In this document: one piece after another, positions 3,145 through 30,871 of the stretch
How positions within the stretch are numbered: the first letter of the stretch is position 1
Layout of the letters: the number at the start of each line of letters is the position of its first letter
DNA from: an archaeon BMS3Abin17
GTDB lineage: Archaea; Nanobdellota; Nanobdellia; Pacearchaeales; GW2011-AR1
Assembly (NCBI GenBank): GCA_002897655.1
Contig: BDTJ01000023.1
Location: 1-39,351 of the forward strand
DNA length: 39,351 nt
Reading direction: 5' to 3'
The notes under the pieces: generated by a model
Database searches by the model: none
The model's input: the letters and a program-made list of their open reading frames with translations, nothing else
What the model was told of the DNA's origin: nothing
Program-made: the position numbers and the translations under genes

Positions 3145-6100
3145 TTATTGGGAATCTAGATAATCAGATAATTCTTGGTACATAGACATAACATGTTCAA
3201 CATAATCATCATGGCCTGCAGTACAACCATAACCAACATAACCTCTAACAGCAGCTTCCCAGTTAATATATTCCACTTTTCTCCCACAATCCCCGCTAGA
3301 CGGATATAAAACATGTCCATCTTTATAAGAAGTGTGTTTTTCTTCAAGTATTTGTGCTCCAACATCAATATTCTTAGAAGGATTATTCAAAAGAATTTTT
3401 TTACATTCTGTAGAAGCAGAAGGAAGACCATATCTCCCACAATTAGAATATTTTCCTTCTGTATTTATCTGCATTAAACCAATAGAAGGATTTTCTATAG
3501 TTCCTTTTCCACAATTATTTTCACGCATCATAATAGCTAATAATAAGAGAGGATCCGAAATATCATTGTCATTAGATGCGTCAACAATTAATCCTGCATA
3601 AGATGCGCATTTATCATCACATTTACAAGATCTAATTTGAGCTTCATTTGAACCATAACCTTTAATAGGTGAAACAAAATTCTTTTTACTAGCATAATTA
3701 ATAGCATCAATCATATTCTTTTCAGTTCTAGATTTAAAATCATAAGAGGTTTTTCTTTCCTCAACAGGTTCTTCTTTCTCTTTTTCATCTTCTTCATCAT
3801 CTCCTTGCTTTGTTATTAAAAGATTTTTTACAAACCTCAAGTTCTCTTCTAAATTATTCCAAAAACCTTCTCCATTAATCTCTTTGTATTCATCGTCTGA
3901 TAAAAGAGGATTTTTTTGGTCATGTAATTGATCAATAAATTCTTTAATCTCATAATATTGAGAATACTTTGCACTTTCTCCAAATTGCCTCATAAGAGAA
4001 TCAACTTTTTTAAGAGTAGTTTCAAGAGTCCACTCTTCTTTTTTTGTTCCATCACTCAAATCAGTTTTACAACTAACAGATCTTCCAATATCATACCAAT
4101 TATCTTCAATTTTACAAGAGAATCCCTGCAGATTACTTATCATATTACATTCTTCTGCATCACAGATATCAATGCCATTCCCACAATCTTCACATCTTGT
4201 AATTGTTACACAAGAAACTCCTTCAAATGCAGATTTATCTTGAGAGATACAATATAATTTATGCTTATCTTTAATAGCTTCACATATTTCTTTAACACAA
4301 GTTACATCACCTCCACTATTTTGACAATCTTCGCAAGAGTTAGCATAATCTATTAAAGATTGTTCTTCCTTAGAAAATGTTGTCTTAATAACTTCGTCAC
4401 CTAATATTAAAACGCCATTTATTATCTCCTCTACTTTATATGTTTTCTCAAAGAATTTAACAGTCATTTCTTTTTTATTATAATCCTCAAATAGAACTTG
4501 TTGCTCTTCTCCAGAGGGTGTTTTAACAGTTAACCATTTCCCACCAATGCTAGGATCTACAAAAGGAGTAATCTTATCTATTTCTTTTCTAATCTCTTCC
4601 TCAGATCGATAACAGCAACAATCTACATCTTGAGTATACAATTCTTTAGAAAGTGTTATACATTCCTCTTTAGGTAAGAGTTTTCCTCTAGATAATCCAC
4701 TTGCTATGCAAAAATCATTACATGTTTTATCTTCTTCTTTAACTTCAGCATCTGTCTCTTCCCTCTTAATTGGCTCATACAGGTTTATAGCAAGCTCGCC
4801 ATATGTATTTGCTCTTAGCAGGAATAACTTTGCTTTATCATAATCCCAAAATACTTTGTCAATTATATCGCTTATTCTATTTATTTTAGTGACCAAATCA
4901 CCCTCATCCTCTATCTCCTTTACTTCTTTTTTAAACTTAGTCCCTTCAAGATAATCCCCCTCACTCCTTAAAGAATTCATATAATTCTCAGTCTGCTTCT
5001 TTAATATATCTCCTGCAGTAGAATTAAACACAACAGCATCTTTAATACTCTCTCTATCCATCCAGCATTTCATTTCTTTATTATCATCACAATAACCAAC
5101 TCTAATCCATCTACGCTTTTCTATTGCCTGATTATCACTTCCTTTTCCAGGATCATCTGTTGAACATATTCTTATTATTCCCATGTCATAAATCGCAGGA
5201 TTAACTGCATCATCAACCCCTTCCTGGATATTTGGGCTCAATAAACTATACACACTTGTGCTTCCTGAAACACACTCTTTTTCAGAAGTTATGTCTGTTC
5301 TCTCTGCCTGTTCTTTAACAGCCTGATCACTTATCCAATCAAGTGCAAACGAAGTTGAAACCTCTTTAAATCCGCATTCTTCTTGCCCATTAACCACAAT
5401 ACATAATTCCCTGTATCCAGAAGGCGCAGTAAAGTCTCTTGTCTCAGATGCATAATCTCCTGTTTTAATATAACCACTCGCAACATTATATCTGTCTCCT
5501 GTATCCTGATAATATGAGCTTTCTTGGTCTCCTTTCAAGTAAACACTATAATATGCTCTTGAATCTTTTCCTGCAGAAATGTGATAATAAACCTTATATT
5601 GTGAGATTGGAGGATTTGTCGCAGTTGTAAATGGAATCTCATGTAACCATCCTGTAAATTGAGGAGGTGAATCTGGTTCTGTCAGAGTATCTAATAAATT
5701 TCCGCCACTAGGATAAACTCCTGACACAGAAGCCTTGCAGATTTCTCCTCCAACTTCTTCTGTTGACCTTGCTTTAAATGCTTTGTAAGAGTTTGCAGCA
5801 TAATATTGTGTGAAATAATCAACTGATTTTCCTGCATTTTCCCATGCACTCTTGACTCCTAAATACTCTCCTCCTCCTCTGACATTTTGTCCTAACATAA
5901 CCTCCATGAGTTTTGGAATAATCATTTTTGTCAAAGGAAGTGCCTGTCTCCAGAAAAACTCGCACTTATGAATACTATAAATCTCGTCGCAGATTCCAAT
6001 CATCTGCCCTGTATCTAAGCTCTCCTGCAGGCAATCTCTGTGACTCTTCATTATAGTAACCCAGTTATCAATTCCTGCTTTTACCCCACTCAGGCAAATA

Positions 6101-9100
6101 GGTATGTAAATTCCTTCTTTATAGTTTGGAAGGCATAAAGCAAGACTTCCAATTATCCCTGATTGAATAACATCTTTAACAGGATATGCCCCTCCAAAAT
6201 CACACCTGCTTGAAGGGCAAATAACAGGGTCACAAACATTAAACATCCACTGACAATCTTCTACAGACATAAAATCAGAACACTGCATTTCTGGAACATC
6301 AACTGCAGGCCTTCCAACATAAGCCTTAACTTTACCGCAATTTGTCTTAATTATTATTCTTTCACTATTTTTATCTGCATTTGAAGCCTTATTAATTGCA
6401 TCAACTGCACAATCTATTATCTTTTTAGCCTCCTTTGTATCTAAGCCAGGAAACTGGTTATATGCCTCTCCTGTTCCAAGATTAACTGTCCTGCATATAT
6501 CATCATTAATTCCTGAGAAAAATTCTGCAATCCCATTTTGACCAACATTGCAGACAGTCATGCTACTCACTCTTCCTGAATCCTGATATGCTCCAATATT
6601 TCCAAATACAGGAAGCGTCTGCTTTGTTGTGACATACCAACCTTGCTCTACATCAAATGGAACAAGTGCAGGAAGCCCTTTGTATGGTTCTGTCTCATAA
6701 TACTTCACAACAGCTCCTGTCCTACCCTCACCTGCAACAGAAATAAACGGATTACTATATGATGATGAGTCGTATCGAGTAAAAGAATATTTGCTATTTA
6801 TCTCAGAGATAAGTGTTTGTTTTATACTATCATCAACTTCTCCACCTTTAAAAGTGAAGATATCATCAACAATATATTCATTACCTTTATTCTTATTTAA
6901 TTTTAATAACCATTTTTCTCCAGAAATACTCTCAGAACTATAAACAAATCCATGAATAAGATTGCCCTTCATGATACCTGTCCCAAAGACATTTTGATTA
7001 AAGACTTTTCCCTTGAATTTTACATCTTGAGAATCTTTTTCTTTTCCAATACTAACATCAACCCCTTCTAATCCATTACTTTTTAATTCACCACCTAATG
7101 ATTGAATTTCAACAACCTCCTCAGAATTCTCCTCAAGCTCAATCAATCTAGAGCATAATTTATTCTTGTAACTCTCATCCTTATCCGCCATATCTAATAA
7201 TGTATAAATATCTCTTGCATCTTCAATATAAACTAAACTTCCCTCTTTTGTAACATTAAATGCCTTGTAAATAGTTGATTCACTATCAAGAGGGATTGTT
7301 CTATCCTTACTTCCATCCTTGCAGGTTATATTCACTCTATCAGACAATTTATTTTTTATCTGAGGATAAAGCTCACTCATAACACCTTTTGTATCAACCC
7401 CTTTTTGCCCAAGAATATCTAAAATACTCCCTTCTTCAGAATATTTTTCATTTAGTTTTTTAGCAATTGCATTATAATCTTCAATAGATTTGGCATAATC
7501 CTCCACATCACTCTCAATTTCTTTTGATTTATCAAGAAGACATTCTTCTCTTGAAGAATAATCCCCTTCATTAACTAAATTATCACATTTAGAATACCAT
7601 TTAGTATTCATAACCTCTTTTCTCGCAATTGCTTTTCCACCTGTATTTGAAATAAGATTTTTGACAGTCAGGAAAGCCTCTGTAGCCAGGCAAGCCCCTT
7701 TCATTCCTTTAACAAACTTCCCAAGGTCCTCAGACCTTTCTTCCCATTCTTTGATTGAGTTGTTCAAATTCTTAATTTTTTCTTTTGTTTTTTCAGGAGA
7801 TAATTTAATTGCTCTTTGCTCAATTCCAATCTTAAAACTAAAATTAGCCTCTGTCCCCTCATTGCTGATGCTTGGCTTAAGAGTCACCTTTGCCATCCTT
7901 TTGAGATTGACATTTAATAAATTAAAACTATATCCACTCTCTCCTTTTGCAACACCTTTTTTAAGAGTTAAAGATTTAATAGGCATAATCACTTTTTCAC
8001 TAGCATCTAAAATACCTGTAGGGCGCAAATAAACCTCAATCTTGGCTGTTTCTTCATCTATAATCTTAACTAATTTTATATAATCATTACCCCATTCAGA
8101 ACCACCGTTATCCTTATTAGTAATTAATTTTTTACCATCTTCAAAATTTTTATCCCCCAAATCTTCTATTAATTTCTTGTTATTTTCATTAAGACTAAAT
8201 ACTTCCCCACCAAGGATTTTAAGATTAAAGAACCCTTTTTTAACTTCTGTCTCTGGAGCACTTACCCAATTACTCAAATCAGGTGACCATCTCCATTTTT
8301 TATCAAACTTGAAATAAATGGTAGTTGTGAATTTACCCCTATCAACAGAAAACATCATCTCACTCTCATTTCTTAAATCATCAAGATAAATAGTTTCATC
8401 GTTTTTAAGAACAACAGGGATTGGCTTTCCTCTGGGAGTCACAACATTTACCTCAGCACTATATTCCTCTTTAGTTGGCTCAATAATCTTTTCAAAAGTA
8501 ATTGTCTTTACTTTTCCATTAATTGACAAGGTTCTGCTGGGAATCTCAGAATTTGCTTTTCTATACTCATTTCCACAAATTCCATTATCACTATGAAGTA
8601 TATCAACAAGATTAGAATTAGGATATTCTTCTTTAAATTCATCGCATAATTCACTCATCCTCTCTTTTTGGTCAATCAAATCTGAGAGAGCTATACTTTC
8701 AAAAAAAGAATCCTCTCCATAAGTTATTCCATTTTCAACACTAGGATTCTCTTGTATTTTTGAATAAGTATCAACAAGTGTTTCATAATCACTCATGGCT
8801 GCTTCATAATAATCTTTAGCCTCTCCTTCTTTTAGAGCCCTGTCCTGTGGGCTTGAAACTCCTGAAATTGAAACTATTTTGCCCTTGAATTTTTCTGGAG
8901 TTCCCTGAACAATATTCCTATAACTTTCACCATCTTTTACCCATCCATAAAAATTTTGCACAGATGCTGAAACATATTTAGCATAACGTTTAAAGACATT
9001 TATATCCTCTCCACTATACTGGTTTGCTATTCTGGAAGTAAAAGAAAGCTCCTCTTCTGTCAATTTAGACCTTTGTTCAGGTATTGCCACAAGATATATA

Positions 9101-10275
9101 TCTAGACTTTCTGAACCTAATTTAGCCCCCACATATCCTAAATAAATAAATTTACTGTTGTCTGAATCATATAGATAATCACCAACACTATACTCTTTGC
9201 CCCCATCACAATCAATTCCATCTTTATTGCAAATCTCTAACCTAACCTTTGGGCTAACACTCAAATCAAAACTCTCTCTGCCTTCATCTGTCTTGCACTT
9301 AATGCTTACTTTTTGTATAAGCCCCTGCTTGTCTATCCCATTTCTTATAATAGAACAATCATTTTCCAGGAATTTCTCTCCTTCCTTAACCTCAACTAAT
9401 TCCCCATTGATATTTAATCTGACTCTTGTATCTGGGTCTTCTAAGCCATTTAATTTTATTTTCAGACCTGCAAGACAATCAAATCCAGGAAGATAAATAT
9501 CCTTAGAAGTCTCTCCTTTTTTCAATGTAACACTTGAAATCTTTTTTGTATCATCATAAACAGAAATTGTTGCCTTGTCGGTTTCAATATCTTCTGCCCT
9601 CAAATACCCTCTTGAATTCCAGAATCCATATTGCTTGTGAATATCTTCCCAATTAGAATCATCACCTACTTCAGGAAGATAGAAATTTACTTTTCCTATT
9701 CCATAAGCATTTTCAATATCATATTTTAATTTTGCTGTTAAATTTCCTTTAATAAATTCAGGCATTGCAGAAGCGTTTTTCTGTTCTTTTAAGACAATAA
9801 CAGCATAACCAATATTATTCAGGACAGGAGAATTAAGATCTCCTTTTACTCCTAAAGCAGAACGCGCAGGATGAAATCCAATCCCCTGAACCCCTTCAGG
9901 ATAATTCCCGCTAAAAGAAATACTCTCAATAGCTTTCACATCTATAAGAGGATTCATTTTTGTTGCTGCTAACTGGCAAAAAACAGGAACATTCTGTTCT
10001 TCTAATAAATCACTTCTTACAACAGCAGGAGTGCATCCAAAAGGAGCTATCTGGATAATAAAATCCTGTCCTGCTTCGCACATTGACCTGTCAACCTTCC
10101 AAGAACCATCTGTGACAAAAGAGCCTGGATAAATATACTGGGTATTTGAACGCATATAACCGGATATTATGGAAGTTGTTAACATAAAAAATATAATAAA
10201 CATTAAGGCTACTAATAGCTTTGACCTACTTTTAGTTGCATTTACTTTCTCTTTCATTTTAACTAATTTCTCCAA
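3145..10275 (-). CDS. Giant membrane-anchored surface protein with C-terminal SLT-type transglycosylase domain
   Basis: This 2376-residue protein has a short basic cytoplasmic N-terminus, one membrane segment at about residues 20-42 (LLVALMFIIFFMLTTSIISG), and then a vast extracellular region. That region has many beta-rich stretches and numerous cysteines, probably disulfide-bonded (for example CDPVICPSSRC and CCCYRS). At the C-terminus, from about residue 2195, is a lysozyme-like SLT domain: LLLLAIMMRENN carries the likely catalytic Glu near 2252, followed by NPSIGLMQIN and a later AAVRGYVGYG helix. The SLT fold cleaves peptidoglycan glycan strands in bacteria and phages. Just upstream, 3 bp away, is the 635-residue partner gene, so the two form an operon. 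The middle of the protein matches nothing I can name. Function on a bacterial or host wall is inference. Confidence 0.85.
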   Translation of the reverse strand: MEKLVKMKEKVNATKSRSKLLVALMFIIFFMLTTSIISGYMRSNTQYIYPGSFVTDGSWKVDRSMCEAGQDFIIQIAPFGCTPAVVRSDLLEEQNVPVFCQLAATKMNPLIDVKAIESISFSGNYPEGVQGIGFHPARSALGVKGDLNSPVLNNIGYAVIVLKEQKNASAMPEFIKGNLTAKLKYDIENAYGIGKVNFYLPEVGDDSNWEDIHKQYGFWNSRGYLRAEDIETDKATISVYDDTKKISSVTLKKGETSKDIYLPGFDCLAGLKIKLNGLEDPDTRVRLNINGELVEVKEGEKFLENDCSIIRNGIDKQGLIQKVSIKCKTDEGRESFDLSVSPKVRLEICNKDGIDCDGGKEYSVGDYLYDSDNSKFIYLGYVGAKLGSESLDIYLVAIPEQRSKLTEEELSFTSRIANQYSGEDINVFKRYAKYVSASVQNFYGWVKDGESYRNIVQGTPEKFKGKIVSISGVSSPQDRALKEGEAKDYYEAAMSDYETLVDTYSKIQENPSVENGITYGEDSFFESIALSDLIDQKERMSELCDEFKEEYPNSNLVDILHSDNGICGNEYRKANSEIPSRTLSINGKVKTITFEKIIEPTKEEYSAEVNVVTPRGKPIPVVLKNDETIYLDDLRNESEMMFSVDRGKFTTTIYFKFDKKWRWSPDLSNWVSAPETEVKKGFFNLKILGGEVFSLNENNKKLIEDLGDKNFEDGKKLITNKDNGGSEWGNDYIKLVKIIDEETAKIEVYLRPTGILDASEKVIMPIKSLTLKKGVAKGESGYSFNLLNVNLKRMAKVTLKPSISNEGTEANFSFKIGIEQRAIKLSPEKTKEKIKNLNNSIKEWEERSEDLGKFVKGMKGACLATEAFLTVKNLISNTGGKAIARKEVMNTKWYSKCDNLVNEGDYSSREECLLDKSKEIESDVEDYAKSIEDYNAIAKKLNEKYSEEGSILDILGQKGVDTKGVMSELYPQIKNKLSDRVNITCKDGSKDRTIPLDSESTIYKAFNVTKEGSLVYIEDARDIYTLLDMADKDESYKNKLCSRLIELEENSEEVVEIQSLGGELKSNGLEGVDVSIGKEKDSQDVKFKGKVFNQNVFGTGIMKGNLIHGFVYSSESISGEKWLLKLNKNKGNEYIVDDIFTFKGGEVDDSIKQTLISEINSKYSFTRYDSSSYSNPFISVAGEGRTGAVVKYYETEPYKGLPALVPFDVEQGWYVTTKQTLPVFGNIGAYQDSGRVSSMTVCNVGQNGIAEFFSGINDDICRTVNLGTGEAYNQFPGLDTKEAKKIIDCAVDAINKASNADKNSERIIIKTNCGKVKAYVGRPAVDVPEMQCSDFMSVEDCQWMFNVCDPVICPSSRCDFGGAYPVKDVIQSGIIGSLALCLPNYKEGIYIPICLSGVKAGIDNWVTIMKSHRDCLQESLDTGQMIGICDEIYSIHKCEFFWRQALPLTKMIIPKLMEVMLGQNVRGGGEYLGVKSAWENAGKSVDYFTQYYAANSYKAFKARSTEEVGGEICKASVSGVYPSGGNLLDTLTEPDSPPQFTGWLHEIPFTTATNPPISQYKVYYHISAGKDSRAYYSVYLKGDQESSYYQDTGDRYNVASGYIKTGDYASETRDFTAPSGYRELCIVVNGQEECGFKEVSTSFALDWISDQAVKEQAERTDITSEKECVSGSTSVYSLLSPNIQEGVDDAVNPAIYDMGIIRICSTDDPGKGSDNQAIEKRRWIRVGYCDDNKEMKCWMDRESIKDAVVFNSTAGDILKKQTENYMNSLRSEGDYLEGTKFKKEVKEIEDEGDLVTKINRISDIIDKVFWDYDKAKLFLLRANTYGELAINLYEPIKREETDAEVKEEDKTCNDFCIASGLSRGKLLPKEECITLSKELYTQDVDCCCYRSEEEIRKEIDKITPFVDPSIGGKWLTVKTPSGEEQQVLFEDYNKKEMTVKFFEKTYKVEEIINGVLILGDEVIKTTFSKEEQSLIDYANSCEDCQNSGGDVTCVKEICEAIKDKHKLYCISQDKSAFEGVSCVTITRCEDCGNGIDICDAEECNMISNLQGFSCKIEDNWYDIGRSVSCKTDLSDGTKKEEWTLETTLKKVDSLMRQFGESAKYSQYYEIKEFIDQLHDQKNPLLSDDEYKEINGEGFWNNLEENLRFVKNLLITKQGDDEEDEKEKEEPVEERKTSYDFKSRTEKNMIDAINYASKKNFVSPIKGYGSNEAQIRSCKCDDKCASYAGLIVDASNDNDISDPLLLLAIMMRENNCGKGTIENPSIGLMQINTEGKYSNCGRYGLPSASTECKKILLNNPSKNIDVGAQILEEKHTSYKDGHVLYPSSGDCGRKVEYINWEAAVRGYVGYGCTAGHDDYVEHVMSMYQELSDYLDSQ

Positions 10276-14207: not shown

Positions 14208-14315
14208 GCCTGTGTAGCTCAGTGTTAGAGCGGCTGCCTTGTACCTAACTTTGCAAAAGATATGGCAGAATTAGAAAGAGAGCAGTAGGTCGGGGGTTAG
14301 AATCCCTCCACAGGC
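14208..14315 (+). tRNA. tRNA-Thr (UGU) with a 37-nt intron
   Basis: The acceptor GCCTGTG pairs with CACAGGC, and the D stem is GCTC/GAGC. The anticodon stem GCTGC (14233-14237) pairs with GCAGT (14282-14286). Removing an intron at 14244-14280, the canonical position between 37 and 38, gives the loop CTTGTAA with anticodon TGT. A bulge-helix-bulge is supported by CTAA (14245-14248) pairing with TTAG (14271-14274). The discriminator is T, as in many archaeal tRNA-Thr. The T loop reads TTAGAAT, with A where C56 is nearly universal, and the 7-nt D loop AGTGTTA lacks the usual GG pair. Confidence 0.85.
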
Positions 14316-14371
14316 TTATTCTAAAATTATATAAATTTTTAAAAAGAATCTTTTATAGTATACTCTTAGGG

Positions 14372-22766: not shown

Positions 22767-23222
22767 TTAAATTTTTATTTCTTTCTTAATTAACCCATCA
22801 ATCAGCTTATAACTATTAGCCCACTTAGCATAAGCTTGCCATCCTTGAAAAATCTCTAAAAACTTACTATAACTTATTTTTCCCTGATTAAACAATCTTA
22901 TTTTTCTTCTCATATTTCTGATATTCCTCCCCCTTAATAAATGATGGTAATAAAAATTTCTAAATCCGACAAAGTCTACTCCTCTTGAAAGAGAAATTAT
23001 TTTAGACTTATCTGGATGAAGCTCAAGTTTTAACCTTTCTTTAAGAAATTTGTTAATCTCTTTTTTCCAATATACTAATTTATCTTTAGAATTATGTAAA
23101 ATTACAAAATCATCAACATATCTAATATAATATTTTGCTTTTAATTTGTGTTTTGCAAAATAATCTAATTCATTTAAATAAACATTTGCAAAAAATTGTG
23201 AAGTTAAATTACCGAGAGGCAT
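22767..23222 (-). CDS. DGR reverse transcriptase, C-terminal part (catalytic half)
   Basis: This 151-residue frame begins MPLGNLTSQFFANVYLNELD. The LGNLTSQ segment matches the (I/L/V)GxxxSQ motif that marks DGR reverse transcriptases. YIRYVDDFVI follows, with the catalytic YVDD pair near residues 37-38, then the PDKSKI block and a thumb region ending WANSYKLIDGLIKKEIKI. It is the continuation of the ORF at 23233-23844 in another frame; the frame is open upstream through TNRRG to the (GA)9 tract. It is unlikely to act alone because motif A is in the other part. Confidence 0.85.
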   Translation of the reverse strand: MPLGNLTSQFFANVYLNELDYFAKHKLKAKYYIRYVDDFVILHNSKDKLVYWKKEINKFLKERLKLELHPDKSKIISLSRGVDFVGFRNFYYHHLLRGRNIRNMRRKIRLFNQGKISYSKFLEIFQGWQAYAKWANSYKLIDGLIKKEIKI

Positions 23223-23232
23223 GCCTCTTCTA

Positions 23233-23844
23233 TTAGTAGATTGGCTCGCGTCTCTCTCTCTCTCTCTCGGTTACGCCCTGAGAATTAAATAAGATTTGTT
23301 TAACCAACCAAATAGTTTTTTCATCTTTTATCCTGCTTTTTAGAATAGTCAAGAGAATATCATGATTAATATTTTGAAAATAATGCTTAATGTCTGCCTT
23401 TAAACAAAAACCTTTTATCTGGTTATTATTAAACCACCCATTTGTCTTTCCATTTCTTGAAACTTTTCTTTTAAATTTTTCAAATCTCTTTATTGCAAAC
23501 AAATTTCCTTTGCTTTTTCTGTTTGCACAGTTATCATAAATGAATGTTTTATCAAAGATGGGCTCAATTATATTGCATAAGGCATGGTGGACTATTCTGT
23601 CTCTAAAATCAGATTTTGAGATTTTACGAGTTTTAGGGTCTCTTAAAATAAATACCTTTAATGGTTTTGGCTTGTAAGTTTGATTTTTTAATTCGTCATG
23701 CAATATTTTCAGGTTATAAGCGAGATTTTCTTCAAACTCAATAACATAATCCTTCTTTGTTTTCCCTTTTCTTGCCTTTTTCCATGCAAGAATGAGGTTT
23801 TTCATTGAATATATATTCTGATAAATATCTTTGTAATTTTTCAT
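23233..23844 (-). CDS. DGR reverse transcriptase, N-terminal part (frameshifted)
   Basis: From the preferred ATG at 23844 (MKNYKDIYQNIYSMKNLILA) it encodes the fingers and motif A of a DGR-type reverse transcriptase: YKPKPLKVFILRDPKTRKIS, then DRIVHHALCNII, then CLKADIKHYFQNI with the motif A Asp at about residue 151. The frame is also open back to 23973, so the template repeat reads in frame ahead of it. It ends at a TAA (23233) after running out of frame in (GA)9, giving GVTERERERREPIY. One more GA unit, or two fewer, would join it to the C-terminal part as a single protein of about 360 residues, a normal length. The enzyme copies the template-repeat RNA with errors at adenines. It is broken as written. 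Confidence 0.85.
   Translation of the reverse strand: MKNYKDIYQNIYSMKNLILAWKKARKGKTKKDYVIEFEENLAYNLKILHDELKNQTYKPKPLKVFILRDPKTRKISKSDFRDRIVHHALCNIIEPIFDKTFIYDNCANRKSKGNLFAIKRFEKFKRKVSRNGKTNGWFNNNQIKGFCLKADIKHYFQNINHDILLTILKSRIKDEKTIWLVKQILFNSQGVTERERERREPIY
23251..23268 (-). repeat. (GA)9 microsatellite in the reverse transcriptase gene
   Basis: Eighteen bases of pure TC on the plus strand (GA on the coding strand) lie between reverse transcriptase motif A and the LGNLTSQ motif. Nine units put the downstream half out of frame; seven or ten units restore it, reading TERERDASQSTNRRGMPLGN across the tract. Dinucleotide runs of this length are classical sites of replication slippage. Confidence 0.9.
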
Positions 23845-23875
23845 TTTAGTGAAAAGTCCCTGGAGTAGGGCTATT

Positions 23876-23966
23876 CCAAAAGCATGGCCATCATCGTTGT
23901 CGTTCCAGTTGTTGCCATTAACATTCAACCTGTTGCCGAAGTTCCAGTTGTAGTTCAGGGCAGACA
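23876..23966 (-). repeat. DGR template repeat (TR)
   Basis: This 91-bp segment aligns without gaps to the variable repeat at 24268-24358 (offset 392). There are 13 mismatches, and every one is at an adenine of the minus (template-coding) strand: 8 or more A to G, the rest A to T or C. About 26 adenines are present. The codons are dominated by AAC and AAT, the codons that adenine mutagenesis can turn into the widest set of residues without making a stop. The segment between TGGCCATGCTTTTGG and the 3' end is unchanged in both copies, as expected for the site where copying or homing begins. The TR lies directly upstream of the reverse transcriptase gene. Confidence 0.95.
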
Positions 23967-24239
23967 GAGCCATGTAGCCAATTAATTAAAAGTAAATCAC
24001 CACCTTTTCAATATTCGCAATATTTCAGCTACTAATTGTCAAAGTTGAATTTTATGATTTGTTTCTGTATAAAAAACAAATACTATTAATTGGCGTGTAG
24101 TCCTTTTTTCTATTTTTCTTGCTCAAGGAAAAATAAAAACTCCAGGACAAAAAAGTAAAACAAGAGATACTTAAAAAACTTTGCTGCACAAGCGCAAAAG
24201 GAAAAATATTATTCAAACTTCTTGCCAGCGAGCCAAAGT
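23967..24239 (-). other. Intergenic region between DGR target gene and template repeat
   Basis: This 273-bp stretch has no convincing ORF, so no accessory Avd gene is seen here. It holds a bulged hairpin (24111-24134, TATTTTTCTTG against CAAGGAAAAATA) and a small stem (TTTGC/GCAAA, near 24178-24196 on the plus strand) followed on the minus strand by a T run. Either could end the target-gene transcript or mark the homing site. An AT-rich box near 24069-24077 (minus TTTTTTATAC) might start the TR/reverse transcriptase transcript. Confidence 0.45.
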
Positions 24240-25642: not shown

Positions 25643-26758
25643 ATGTTTGGAAAACTAAAAGAAAAATTAAAAAACTGGGCAAAAAAGGTTTCAGAAAAAG
25701 TAGAAAAAAAACCAATAGAAGAAGTAGTTGAAACTAAAAAAGAAACTCTGGAAAAATTAAAGGAAAAATCAGGTGTAGAAAAGACAAAACCTATTAAAAA
25801 AATAGATATAAGGCCAAAAGAAATTGAGAAACCTGTTGAAGAAATCAAAGAGCCAGAAGAGCCTGGGAAACAGAGCTTTTTCAAAAAAGTAACCTCAAAA
25901 ATAAGCAAGGTAAAGATTACAGAAAAAGAGTTTGAGATATACAAGGATGAGCTTGAAATGCTCTTATTAGAAAATAATGTTGCTTTGGAAGTTGCAGAAA
26001 AAATGATTCAAGAGCTAAAAGAAAAGATTGTAGGCAAAGAACTCTTGAAAAAAGAGGTTGAGGGTGAAATTAAAGAGGATTTCAAAGAGATAATTGAAAA
26101 TATTTTGATAGAACCTTTTAAGGTGGAAGAAAGAATAAAAGAAAAAATAGAAGACCAGTCAAAAGAGCCTTATGTAATATTATTTTGCGGGATAAATGGA
26201 ACAGGCAAGACAACTACAATAGCAAAAATTGCACAAAGTCTGAAAAATCAAAATATAAGTTGTGTACTGGCTGCTGCAGACACTTTCAGAGCTGCTTCAA
26301 TCGAGCAATTAAAAAAACACGGAGAAAAAATAGGTGTAAATGTAATTTCAAATGAATACGGGTCTGACCCAGCATCAGTTGGGTTTGATGCAATCCAGCA
26401 TGCAAAAAAGAACATGATTAATTGTGTTTTAATTGATACTGCAGGAAGAATGCACACTGCAAAAAACCTCATAAAAGAAATTGAAAAGATTTCAAAAGTC
26501 TGCAAACCTGACTTAAAAATATTTGTTGGAGAAAGCCTTACAGGAAATGATATAATTGAGCAGGTAAAAAGCTTTGACTGGGCACTTGGAATTGAGGGTA
26601 TTATATTAACTAAAAGTGATGTGGATGAAAAAGGCGGAACAGCCTTGTCAGTCGGCTATATCACAAGAAAACCAATTTTATATCTGGGAACTGGACAGGA
26701 TTATGATAAAATAGAACCCTTTGACAAACAAAAATTCATCAAGACACTTGGATTATAA
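25643..26758 (+). CDS. ftsY: SRP receptor FtsY
   Basis: The 371-residue protein has a long charged N-terminal A region (about 1-95, EKxxKK-rich), an N domain of helices, and a GTPase domain. The G motifs are GINGTGKTT (about residue 183), DTFRAASIEQL, DTAGRMH and TKSDVDEKGG, ending with YLGTGQDYDKIEPFD. FtsY binds the SRP-ribosome complex at the membrane through SRP54; that partner is encoded downstream at 27725. The A region is likely membrane-associated. Its TATA-like box is near 25612-25620. Confidence 0.95.
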   Translation: MFGKLKEKLKNWAKKVSEKVEKKPIEEVVETKKETLEKLKEKSGVEKTKPIKKIDIRPKEIEKPVEEIKEPEEPGKQSFFKKVTSKISKVKITEKEFEIYKDELEMLLLENNVALEVAEKMIQELKEKIVGKELLKKEVEGEIKEDFKEIIENILIEPFKVEERIKEKIEDQSKEPYVILFCGINGTGKTTTIAKIAQSLKNQNISCVLAAADTFRAASIEQLKKHGEKIGVNVISNEYGSDPASVGFDAIQHAKKNMINCVLIDTAGRMHTAKNLIKEIEKISKVCKPDLKIFVGESLTGNDIIEQVKSFDWALGIEGIILTKSDVDEKGGTALSVGYITRKPILYLGTGQDYDKIEPFDKQKFIKTLGL

Positions 26759-27724: not shown

Positions 27725-30700
27725 ATGCTAGAGAAGTTAGGTGAAGTATTAAGAAAAGCTACAAATAAAATAGCTAATGCTATATTTCTTGACAAAAATC
27801 TGGTCGATTCAATAGTAAGAGACTTGCAAAGGGCCCTAATTGAGGCAGATGTAAACATACACTTAATCAAGCAATTATCTGATAAAATAAAAAAAGCAGC
27901 TCTGGATGAAAGAATTAAAGGTATAGAGAAAAAAGAGCACATTATCAAGCTTCTTCATGATGAGCTTGTAAAGATTCTTGGAGAATACAAGCAGTTAAAA
28001 CTGAAAAAAGGTCAGAACAGAATCATGCTTTTTGGTTTATATGGCTGTGGTAAATGTGTCCATGGAAAAAGCAACATTCAATTAAGTGATGGAAACATAA
28101 TACGGGCTGAAAATCTCTATGAAGGATATGGTGGGAGATTTAATGAAGAAAATATTGAAGATGGAAAGATAATCGATATCTCAAATGAAAATTTATTTGT
28201 CCCTTCATTCAATCCTCAAACTCTAAAAATTGAAAATAAAAAAGCCACGCATTTGTGGAAATTAAAAAAAGAAGAATTAATAGAGATTAAATTAAACAAT
28301 GGAAATGATTATTCCATAAAAGTTACTCCTGAACACCCATTTTTTGTTCTTAGAAATGGGCAAGTAACCCAAATAAGGGCAGATGAAATAACTGAGGATG
28401 ATTTTATCTCTGTTCCAAATGAGATAGAAGTTAAAGGAAAATCAATAAATTTATTTGACAAGATAAAAAATCTAGACTTATATGTTTATCTAACTCCAAA
28501 AGAAGCAAAAGAGTGTATCTTAAAAAAATATAATAGACTAAAAGAAGCTCACGAAGATTTAAAATTCAAAAAAAATTATATTCAATTCACACAAGATATT
28601 AAAAAAGGGAAAATACCTATAGAATTATTAGAAAAGAGGGAACTTAATTTTCTAAGAATAAAAGGATATAATGACAAAACAGTAATTTCCTTACCATTAT
28701 TTTTAATTTCTGAATTTGCAGAATTTATCGGATATGTTATTGGGGATGGTTATATTAATAAAGGATATATAGAAATTACAACTGAAAATCCAGAAATAAT
28801 AAAGAGAATAATAGAACTCTCAAAAATTTTATTTAATCTAATTCCAACAATAACTAAAGACAAAAGAACAAAAAACCTTTATCAAATTAGACTTAATTCA
28901 AGAACTCTTGTAGAAATCTTTAAAATATTTAATTTAACTCCCGGAAGAAAAGGGAAAAAATTACAGGTTCCTAAGCAAATAATATGCTCTAACAATGAAG
29001 CGGTAAGATCTTTCATTAGGGCTTATTTTGATTGTGATTCTCACCCCACTAATAACAAAAGACAAATAGAATTAATCTCAGAAAGCCAAATTATAATACA
29101 GCAAATTAATTTATTATTAAGAAGATTTGGCATATTATCTACAATCTCAAAAAAAATTATTAATAAAATCCCTTACTGGAGATTATATATTAAAGCAAAA
29201 TATGCTGAGATTTACTCTGAGAAAATTGGTTATTTGATAAAAAGTAAGCAAGAAAAAGTAAGCAAATATAAACAAATAGGTGAAATTCAGGGGGCAGGAA
29301 ACCAAGATATGGTCCCTTTAGGCAATGCGCTAAAAGCATTGAGATTAATATTGGGATTTTCTATTGGAGAGATACAAGAAAATGCAGTTTATAGTTATGG
29401 AATATATGAACAAAAAGGATTTATCTCAAGAGGACAATTAAGAAAATTAATATTGTATTACAAACTGAGGAAAAAAGGATTCTTCTTGGATATTCTTGAA
29501 GATATTTCAGAGAATACCCTTTTAAGAGAGAAATATTCACATAATGTTATTAATGGTGTTTTAAAACATCTAAAAAATGAGGGATTTATAGAAATAGAAA
29601 ATAAACAGATAAATCTATCTCAAAGGGGAAAGCAGTATCTCCAAATGGTATGTAGAAGTGAACATAAAAATTTACTAAATACACTTGAATTTTTATCATT
29701 ATCAAATATCTGCTGGATTCCTGTAAAAGAAATCAATCAAATAAAAAATGATGAAGAATTTGTCTATGATCTTACTATAGAGGACAATCATAGCTTTATT
29801 GCTAATGGAATAATAGTTCATAATACAACAACAATAGCAAAATTAGGCAATTATTTCGCGAAAAGGGGAAACAAAGTTGCGCTTGTGGGACTTGATGTTC
29901 ATCGTCCTGCAGCAAAAGAGCAGTTAAAACAGCTTGCAGAGCAAAATAAGCTGAATTATTTTATAGAATTTGAAGAAGATGATGCTATAAAAACATGGAA
30001 AAACATAGAGCCAAAATTAAAAGAGTATAATGTGGTTTTGATAGACACAGCAGGACGTCATACTTTAGACAGAGAGTTAGTTCAGGAAATAAAAAGCCTG
30101 AGCAAATATGTAAAGCCAACAGAATCAATTCTGGTAATGCCTGCAGACATTGGCCAGGCAGCAAAAAAACAATCACAGGAATTCAAAGATACAGTAGATA
30201 TCTCTGGAGTTATAATTACAAGGATGGATTCAACTGCAAAAGGTGGTGGAGCGCTTACAGCATGTGGAGAGACAAAAGCAGGAGTTTATTTCATTGGAAC
30301 AGGTGAAAAAGTAAATGACATAGAAGAATTTAATCCAGAGTCCTTCCTCTCAAGGCTTCTTGGCATGGGTGATTTACAATCCTTAATTGAAAAAATAAAG
30401 TTAGTCACAGATGAAGATAGTCAAAAAGCAATGCAACAACGTCTTGAAGAAGGAAAACTATCTCTGGAAGATGTTGTTGAGCAGGTCAAGTCAATGGGCT
30501 CTCTTGGAGGTTTTGACAAGATAAAATCAATGATTCCAGGAATGAGTTCTGCAAAAATACCTGAAAACCTGATGGAAAACCAGCAGGAAAAAATCTCAAA
30601 ATGGGAGCATATAATAAAATCAATGACTCAAGAAGAAAAAAACAATCCAGAACTTCTAAAAGAAAAAAACACAGGAACTTCAAGGATAAACAGGATTGCA

Positions 30701-30871
30701 AAAGGCTCAGGTGTTAACAACAGCGATATTCGTTCTCTTCTAAAGCAGTATGACATGCTAAACAGCATGATTGGCTCAAGCTCGCAGTTTGACCCTGAAA
30801 AGCCAATGTCTCAAAAACAAATGATGAAGATGGCAAAGAAGTTTATGAAGGGAAAGAAATTCAAGTTCTAG
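27725..30871 (+). CDS. srp54: Signal recognition particle SRP54 with an intein
   Basis: The precursor is 1048 residues, and removing a 590-residue intein (residues 111-700) leaves a normal SRP54 of about 458. The host parts are an N domain (1-95), then GLYGCGK joined to TTTIAKLG to complete the P-loop GCGKTTT, GLDVHRPAAKEQL, VLIDTAGRH, TRMDSTAKGGGAL and the methionine-rich M domain from about 880 (SMIPGMSSAK, MSQKQMMKMAKKFMKGKKF). SRP54 binds signal sequences and SRP RNA and delivers ribosomes to FtsY, encoded close upstream. The intein splits the GTP-binding loop, so the protein cannot work until it is spliced. Confidence 0.97.
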   Translation: MLEKLGEVLRKATNKIANAIFLDKNLVDSIVRDLQRALIEADVNIHLIKQLSDKIKKAALDERIKGIEKKEHIIKLLHDELVKILGEYKQLKLKKGQNRIMLFGLYGCGKCVHGKSNIQLSDGNIIRAENLYEGYGGRFNEENIEDGKIIDISNENLFVPSFNPQTLKIENKKATHLWKLKKEELIEIKLNNGNDYSIKVTPEHPFFVLRNGQVTQIRADEITEDDFISVPNEIEVKGKSINLFDKIKNLDLYVYLTPKEAKECILKKYNRLKEAHEDLKFKKNYIQFTQDIKKGKIPIELLEKRELNFLRIKGYNDKTVISLPLFLISEFAEFIGYVIGDGYINKGYIEITTENPEIIKRIIELSKILFNLIPTITKDKRTKNLYQIRLNSRTLVEIFKIFNLTPGRKGKKLQVPKQIICSNNEAVRSFIRAYFDCDSHPTNNKRQIELISESQIIIQQINLLLRRFGILSTISKKIINKIPYWRLYIKAKYAEIYSEKIGYLIKSKQEKVSKYKQIGEIQGAGNQDMVPLGNALKALRLILGFSIGEIQENAVYSYGIYEQKGFISRGQLRKLILYYKLRKKGFFLDILEDISENTLLREKYSHNVINGVLKHLKNEGFIEIENKQINLSQRGKQYLQMVCRSEHKNLLNTLEFLSLSNICWIPVKEINQIKNDEEFVYDLTIEDNHSFIANGIIVHNTTTIAKLGNYFAKRGNKVALVGLDVHRPAAKEQLKQLAEQNKLNYFIEFEEDDAIKTWKNIEPKLKEYNVVLIDTAGRHTLDRELVQEIKSLSKYVKPTESILVMPADIGQAAKKQSQEFKDTVDISGVIITRMDSTAKGGGALTACGETKAGVYFIGTGEKVNDIEEFNPESFLSRLLGMGDLQSLIEKIKLVTDEDSQKAMQQRLEEGKLSLEDVVEQVKSMGSLGGFDKIKSMIPGMSSAKIPENLMENQQEKISKWEHIIKSMTQEEKNNPELLKEKNTGTSRINRIAKGSGVNNSDIRSLLKQYDMLNSMIGSSSQFDPEKPMSQKQMMKMAKKFMKGKKFKF
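28055..29824 (+). mobile_element. Intein with LAGLIDADG-type homing endonuclease in srp54
   Basis: The intein begins at Cys (CVHGKSNIQLSDGN, block A) and ends FIANGIIVHN, with Thr as the first extein residue. Block B is VTPEHPFFVLRNGQ. Two LAGLIDADG (DOD) motifs are visible, FIGYVIGDGYI and FIRAYFDCDSH, with conserved acidic residues in each, and block F reads EFVYDLTIEDNHSF. A helix-rich segment (GNALKALRLILGFSIGEIQE onward) follows the endonuclease. At 590 residues it is long for an intein. Splicing residues Cys1, the block B His, and the C-terminal His-Asn are all present, so it is probably active. Standard alignment was not done. Confidence 0.9.

Follow-up and report, generated by a model that had tools for sequence, protein, structure and literature searches.

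The window analysed here comprises positions 1-39,351 of contig BDTJ01000023.1 (GCA_002897655.1, archaeon BMS3Abin17), read on its forward strand. Its open reading frame at 27725-30871 (+) comprises 1048 codons and encodes SRP54, interrupted by an insert at 28055-29824 (Table 1). In translation, this insert spans exactly 590 codons, from Cys1 to His589-Asn590, and is followed by Thr+1. It separates the Lys and the Thr of the SRP54 Walker A motif (GLYGCGK/TTT, the slash marking the junction) in phase 0, and the reading frame is continuous across both junctions (GLYGCGK/CVHGKSN ... GIIVHN/TTTIAK). Outside the insert, Pfam detected SRP54_N, the SRP54 GTPase domain and SRP_SPB, and inside it Intein_splicing (6.7e-30) and two LAGLIDADG_3 stretches (6e-21). 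The NCBIfam models agree with these boundaries, with intein_Nterm (TIGR01445) starting at residue 111, which is Cys1 of the intein, and intein_Cterm (TIGR01443) ending at residue 701, which is Thr+1. The presence of N, G and M domains identifies the host as archaeal SRP54 and not FtsY, and its best PDB match is the Methanocaldococcus-type SRP54 (2v3c/3ndb). The host scored below the cut-off of TIGR00959 only because the insert splits the match, and NF011418, the NCBIfam model of intein-bearing IF-2, aligned across the insert. FtsY, the paralogous receptor GTPase, is encoded upstream and ends 966 nt before the SRP54 frame. An earlier note on this DNA had claimed a 590-residue intein in the SRP54 P-loop, interrupting GLYGCGK-TTT; translation, Pfam, NCBIfam and the alignment to empty sites described below place it at the same coordinates to the base, and frame and junctions agree with the claimed interruption.

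Table 1. Coordinates of the interrupted SRP54 gene, the parts of its intein and the neighbouring FtsY gene in the window.
Feature	Position	Strand	Evidence
FtsY, paralogous SRP-receptor GTPase, intein-free (GINGTGKTTT)	25643..26758	+	TIGR00064
SRP54 N-extein: N domain plus first part of the G domain, up to Walker A GLYGCGK (-1 residue Lys110)	27725..28054	+	Pfam SRP54_N, translation
Intein, 590 residues, Cys1 ... His589-Asn590	28055..29824	+	Pfam, NCBIfam, gap-free match after removal
N-terminal Hint splicing segment, residues 1-122; Cys1, block B Thr91-Pro-Glu-His94	28055..28420	+	TIGR01445, invariant catalytic columns 18/18, structure model
First LAGLIDADG helix EFAEFIGYVIGDGY, residues 219-232, catalytic Asp231	28709..28750	+	Pfam LAGLIDADG_3, conservation, model helix H219-231
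Second LAGLIDADG helix AVRSFIRAYFDCDS, residues 316-329, catalytic Asp328	29000..29041	+	Pfam LAGLIDADG_3, conservation, model helix H314-328
Accessory, mostly helical domain, residues 398-551, probably DNA-binding (helix-turn-helix / winged-helix-like)	29246..29707	+	Separate AlphaFold2 model; weak winged-helix matches
C-terminal Hint segment, residues 552-590; Asp572, block F His579, penultimate His589, Asn590	29708..29824	+	TIGR01443, conservation
SRP54 C-extein: remaining G domain and M domain, starting Thr-Thr-Thr; Thr+1 expected nucleophile	29825..30871	+	Pfam SRP54, SRP_SPB

Elsewhere in the window, an Rfam RT-16 RNA (93 bits) occupies 23969-24139 (-), immediately upstream of a reverse transcriptase with an RVT_1 domain divided between the frames 23233-23973 (profile positions 8-113) and 22767-23222 (119-204), both on the minus strand. 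The region 22767-24139 (-) is a reverse-transcriptase/ncRNA element with an apparently frameshifted or split enzyme. A 109-nt Rfam tRNA match at 14208-14316 (+), missed by ARAGORN, probably contains an intron. For the 2376-residue frame at 3145-10275 (-), the sole Pfam match was a C-terminal SLT transglycosylase at E=0.00045, below the cut-off. In the archaeon's own genome (G000, 1.09 Mb), we counted 19 intein splicing domain matches on eleven contigs, among them C14, C15, C18, C21, C35, C37, C38, C42 and C44. Because most of these matches lie in long frames, the genome probably carries about ten or more inteins.

Removing the insert in silico yields a 458-residue SRP54 encoded by a gene of 1377 nt. 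The joined exteins align without a single gap to the SRP54 genes of two relatives that lack the intein, L016 and L017, each likewise of 1377 nt. At its empty site, L017 encodes the identical P-loop, GLYGCGK, and the DNA flanking the junction is closely similar as well. This gap-free fit to empty sister genes is far beyond chance. The two alleles come from the nearest relatives, which belong to the same family and not the same genus, and all genomes compared are draft metagenome bins. Intein-free alleles in close relatives, which the earlier note had proposed to look for, are found in these two genomes and in the majority of the sampled SRP54 genes. In the archaeon's own assembly, a 92%-complete draft metagenome bin, no second, intein-free SRP54 copy was found; one may lie within the missing ~8% of the genome. 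Because the only SRP54 found in this genome is the interrupted one, SRP function in the archaeon should depend on protein splicing.

The splicing apparatus is intact, as judged from an alignment of 18 relatives of the intein. Cys1 and, in block B, Thr91 and His94 are invariant in 18/18 relatives, and Asp572, the block F His579, His589 and Asn590 in all 16 whose sequence extends that far. The sequence carries the hallmarks of a class 1 intein, namely Cys1, Thr91-Pro-Glu-His94 (TxxH), His589-Asn590 and Thr+1, and its Hint fold lies in one frame between exteins whose joining gives an intact host protein. Each of the two LAGLIDADG helices bears a catalytic acidic residue (Asp231 and Asp328), and both positions are acidic in all aligned relatives except the FtsY copy of genome G019. 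An AlphaFold2 model of the intein, calculated with the 18-relative alignment, reached a pLDDT of 91.4 and a pTM of 0.88, and its closest full-length PDB structures were the TliVMA intein (7qss), PI-PkoII (2cw7) and PI-PfuI (1dq3). Residues 398-551, located between endonuclease and C-terminal splicing block, form a separate, mostly helical domain with a β-hairpin (own AlphaFold2 model, pLDDT 84), which is conserved in the relatives. The winged-helix matches of this accessory domain are weak (CggR by fold, E=0.05; HTH_45, E=0.0025, in 5/15 members). Its placement and secondary structure correspond to those of the accessory domain in archaeal intein endonucleases, and the one of TliVMA is similar to DNA-binding repressors and changes the specificity of cleavage (PMC8966425); by this analogy, the domain is probably DNA-binding. 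The components claimed in the earlier note, that is, the splicing residues Cys1 and terminal His-Asn, two LAGLIDADG motifs and an additional helical domain, are all in place, and the alignment revealed no mutated splicing residue. In view of these features, we are confident that the insert is a large, mobile class 1 intein with a LAGLIDADG endonuclease, residing in the Walker A motif of SRP54.

Among characterized inteins, the archaeal VMA-b inteins TliVMA and PhoVMA (7qss, 7qst; PMC8966425) come closest, being the best PDB match by sequence profile as well as by fold. They are likewise class 1 inteins located in the P-loop of a P-loop NTPase and share the order of Hint, LAGLIDADG endonuclease and accessory domain. 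However, they reside in V/A-ATPase subunit A, measure 429 and 376 residues instead of 590, have a different accessory domain and are only about 20% identical to the SRP54 intein over the aligned structure. The +1 context also differs, which here is the GK/TTT of an SRP-family GTPase. We considered and rejected an assignment as VMA-b intein, as the host is SRP54 and the VMA P-loop intein L185 falls outside the SRP54/FtsY group in the tree. Inteins of archaeal IF-2, EF-2 and secretion ATPases (GHVDHGK/TT, AHVDHGK/TT and GGxGSGK/TS) also lie between the Walker A Lys and Thr/Ser and share Cys1 and the terminal Asn (mostly His-Asn, Ser-Asn in L183); these remote homologues are about 19-33% identical to the window intein and form separate tree lineages. 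PI-PfuI (1dq3) and PI-PkoII (2cw7) match the fold over the whole length, including Hint and LAGLIDADG domains, but are not P-loop inteins of SRP GTPases and share only 17-19% identity. As a separate observation, several DPANN archaea (L193, L107, L109-L111, L113) carry EF-2 P-loop inteins (AHIHHGK/T) that are remote kin of the SRP54 intein.

Including that of the window, we found 17 SRP54 inteins at exactly the same site across four archaeal groups, intein-free alleles being the majority. With the complete precursor as query, 140 relatives yielded five further SRP54 genes carrying an insert at this position and one FtsY gene with a homologous intein, the large majority of SRP54 genes in this set being intein-free. 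A profile of seven inteins, run against 200 genomes of the order, identified 11 carriers (10 SRP54 and one FtsY). The survey was then widened to 84,980 species genomes and complemented by phylum-level searches. Additional SRP54 inteins came from a woesearchaeote (L070), a genome deposited as Nanoarchaeota (L067), one deposited as Aenigmatarchaeota (L075, truncated where the contig stops), two Thermoplasmatota (L072, L073) and two more genomes of the window's class (L098, L099). Within Thermoplasmatota, 2 of 293 genomes had a full-length member of the group, both being the known SRP54 inteins. All SRP54 inteins are inserted at G-x-x-G-x-G-K/T-T, and the complete ones compared are 43-64% identical to each other. 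More distant kin occupy the P-loops of EF-2, IF-2, ABC, V-ATPase and secretion ATPases, and insertion between the Walker A Lys and Thr/Ser is therefore a recurrent habit of the wider intein class. When IMG/VR was scanned with the intein profile, no viral sequence resembled the SRP54/FtsY group; the matches were remote relatives, mostly of the endonuclease half, at 20-35% identity.

Based on established intein biology, the Hint domain would excise the 590 residues after translation and join GLYGCGK to TTT, restoring the P-loop through an N-S acyl shift at Cys1, transfer to Thr+1, cyclisation of Asn590 and ligation. With its P-loop interrupted, the unspliced precursor should be unable to act as a GTPase, and selection would keep splicing because the precursor cannot form this loop. 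The predicted endonuclease, with assistance from the probable DNA-binding domain, should cleave SRP54 alleles that lack the intein at the codons of the P-loop; gene conversion would then copy the intein into the cut allele. Such homing would account for the patchy spread between lineages, and the patchy distribution together with horizontal transfer lends it indirect support. Alternatively, the intein might be kept because its splicing is conditional, allowing cells to control SRP-dependent protein targeting at the post-translational level. The insert does block the GTP-binding loop of an apparently single-copy gene, and the literature describes conditional splicing for other P-loop inteins, such as those of Pyrococcus horikoshii RadA (PMC5790916) and mycobacterial DnaB (PMC6195587). 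However, selfish homing alone explains the patchiness, the lack of the intein in most close relatives, the intact endonuclease and the horizontal transfer, and no regulatory feature was detected, which makes a retained switch unlikely.

Comparing the histories of intein and host bears on a further alternative, according to which the intein is an ancient, vertically transmitted element that was lost from the intein-free genomes. Consistent with this, identities of inteins and exteins are correlated overall (Spearman 0.65), and although the presence of the intein on the extein tree needs at least five changes by parsimony, about five is a modest number for the sampled tree. Against it, the two trees conflict. 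In the extein tree, the window SRP54 groups with the intein-free L016 and L017, whereas in the intein tree, the window groups with L074, which belongs to another family; for this pair, the inteins are 64% and the exteins 52% identical, an order that is reversed for the window and L063 (60% and 75%). In four pairs (window/L074, window/L077, L071/L074 and L071/L077), the inteins are 11-12 points more alike than the exteins, even though the latter include the most conserved portion of the cellular targeting machinery. AU tests rejected both an extein-like grouping of the window, L063 and L071 inteins (p=0.0048) and a grouping of the inteins as the six-member extein clade (p=0.014). This conflict in identities and AU tests indicates that the intein has moved horizontally between lineages, and we regard purely vertical descent as quite improbable, a shade more so than a regulatory switch. 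An assembly or binning artefact that placed an insert from another gene or organism here can practically be dismissed: the intein is lower in GC (27%, GC3 18%) than the exteins (36%, GC3 31%), but inteins and homing elements are usually low in GC, the frame of 1048 codons is open throughout with exact codon-phase junctions, and the same junction recurs in at least 16 independently assembled genomes.

Inteins of this group are not confined to SRP54. At the P-loop site matching that of SRP54, FtsY inteins were found in Pacearchaeota (G019/L066), Aenigmatarchaeota (G507/L078) and Hadesarchaea (G508/L080), with TIGR00064 being the top family for all three hosts. The SRP54 gene is intein-free in G019 and G507. 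In the G019 FtsY intein (L066/L039), the second catalytic Asp, equivalent to Asp328, is replaced by Gly (FDCGS) and the splicing residues are intact; its endonuclease is probably inactive. The SRP54 gene of G019 (L039) contains an almost exact tandem duplication of ~80 residues of the N domain, which is either real or an assembly error. A single origin of the FtsY inteins, with the three in one clade, was rejected (AU p=0.0009). The best tree places the G019 FtsY intein within the pacearchaeal SRP54 intein radiation (the starred branch, 96/89, contains it). Since the AU test does not reject an SRP54-intein clade that excludes this copy (p=0.17), the jump between SRP54 and FtsY may have gone in either direction. 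In the window genome, the DNA of the empty FtsY site and of the SRP54 site is identical at 17/24 positions at the centre and at 37/60 over 60 nt, and this similarity makes it plausible that an enzyme adapted to one paralogue would cut the site of the other. As FtsY is a paralogue with similar P-loop DNA, the element or its kin would have entered it at the same codon position at least twice. We tentatively propose, as a possibility somewhat short of even odds, that a single intein lineage is specialised for the SRP GTPase pair, moving between SRP54 and FtsY via cuts in similar P-loop DNA. Splicing and cutting in the cell, as well as the jump and its direction, are inferred from sequence.

No published SRP54 or FtsY intein was found in the open-access papers searched. 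This does not contradict the earlier note's impression of few or no such reports. The window intein does not stand alone: 17 SRP54 inteins at the same site are present in public archaeal genomes. No NCBIfam model dedicated to intein-bearing SRP54 or FtsY was hit. Given that NCBIfam has models for several other intein-bearing hosts (those for intein-containing GyrA, Tes and RtcB-related proteins matched), SRP54/FtsY inteins may not yet have been catalogued. In itself, the element is an archaeal intein of the ordinary kind; new, and apparently unreported, are its host genes SRP54 and FtsY and their pairing as paralogues. Paralogous host genes are also known for the inteins of eukaryotic RNA polymerase subunits, for which ectopic movement has been discussed (PMC1635734); those inteins mostly occupy different sites and are not close kin, whereas the SRP54 and FtsY inteins are close kin at the same codon position.

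Inteins have been described as concentrated in genes of DNA replication, repair, transcription and nucleotide metabolism (PMC5874633, PMC1635734). The hosts found here are SRP54, which is central to co-translational protein targeting, and its receptor FtsY. If SRP54 is single-copy, as it appears, the biogenesis of membrane and secreted proteins in this archaeon requires protein splicing. It has been argued that the lack of flanking homology makes ectopic homing very difficult (PMC1635734) and that accessory DNA-binding domains may aid it (PMC8966425). In SRP54 and FtsY, a single endonuclease might find two paralogous targets to cut, which makes the long-standing question of how inteins spread to new genes testable, and the pair is well suited as a natural example of an intein that switches from one paralogue to another. 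Should a lineage specialised in the SRP GTPase pair indeed exist, it would represent natural ectopic homing between paralogues of one pathway and would explain how inteins colonise new genes independently of allelic homology.
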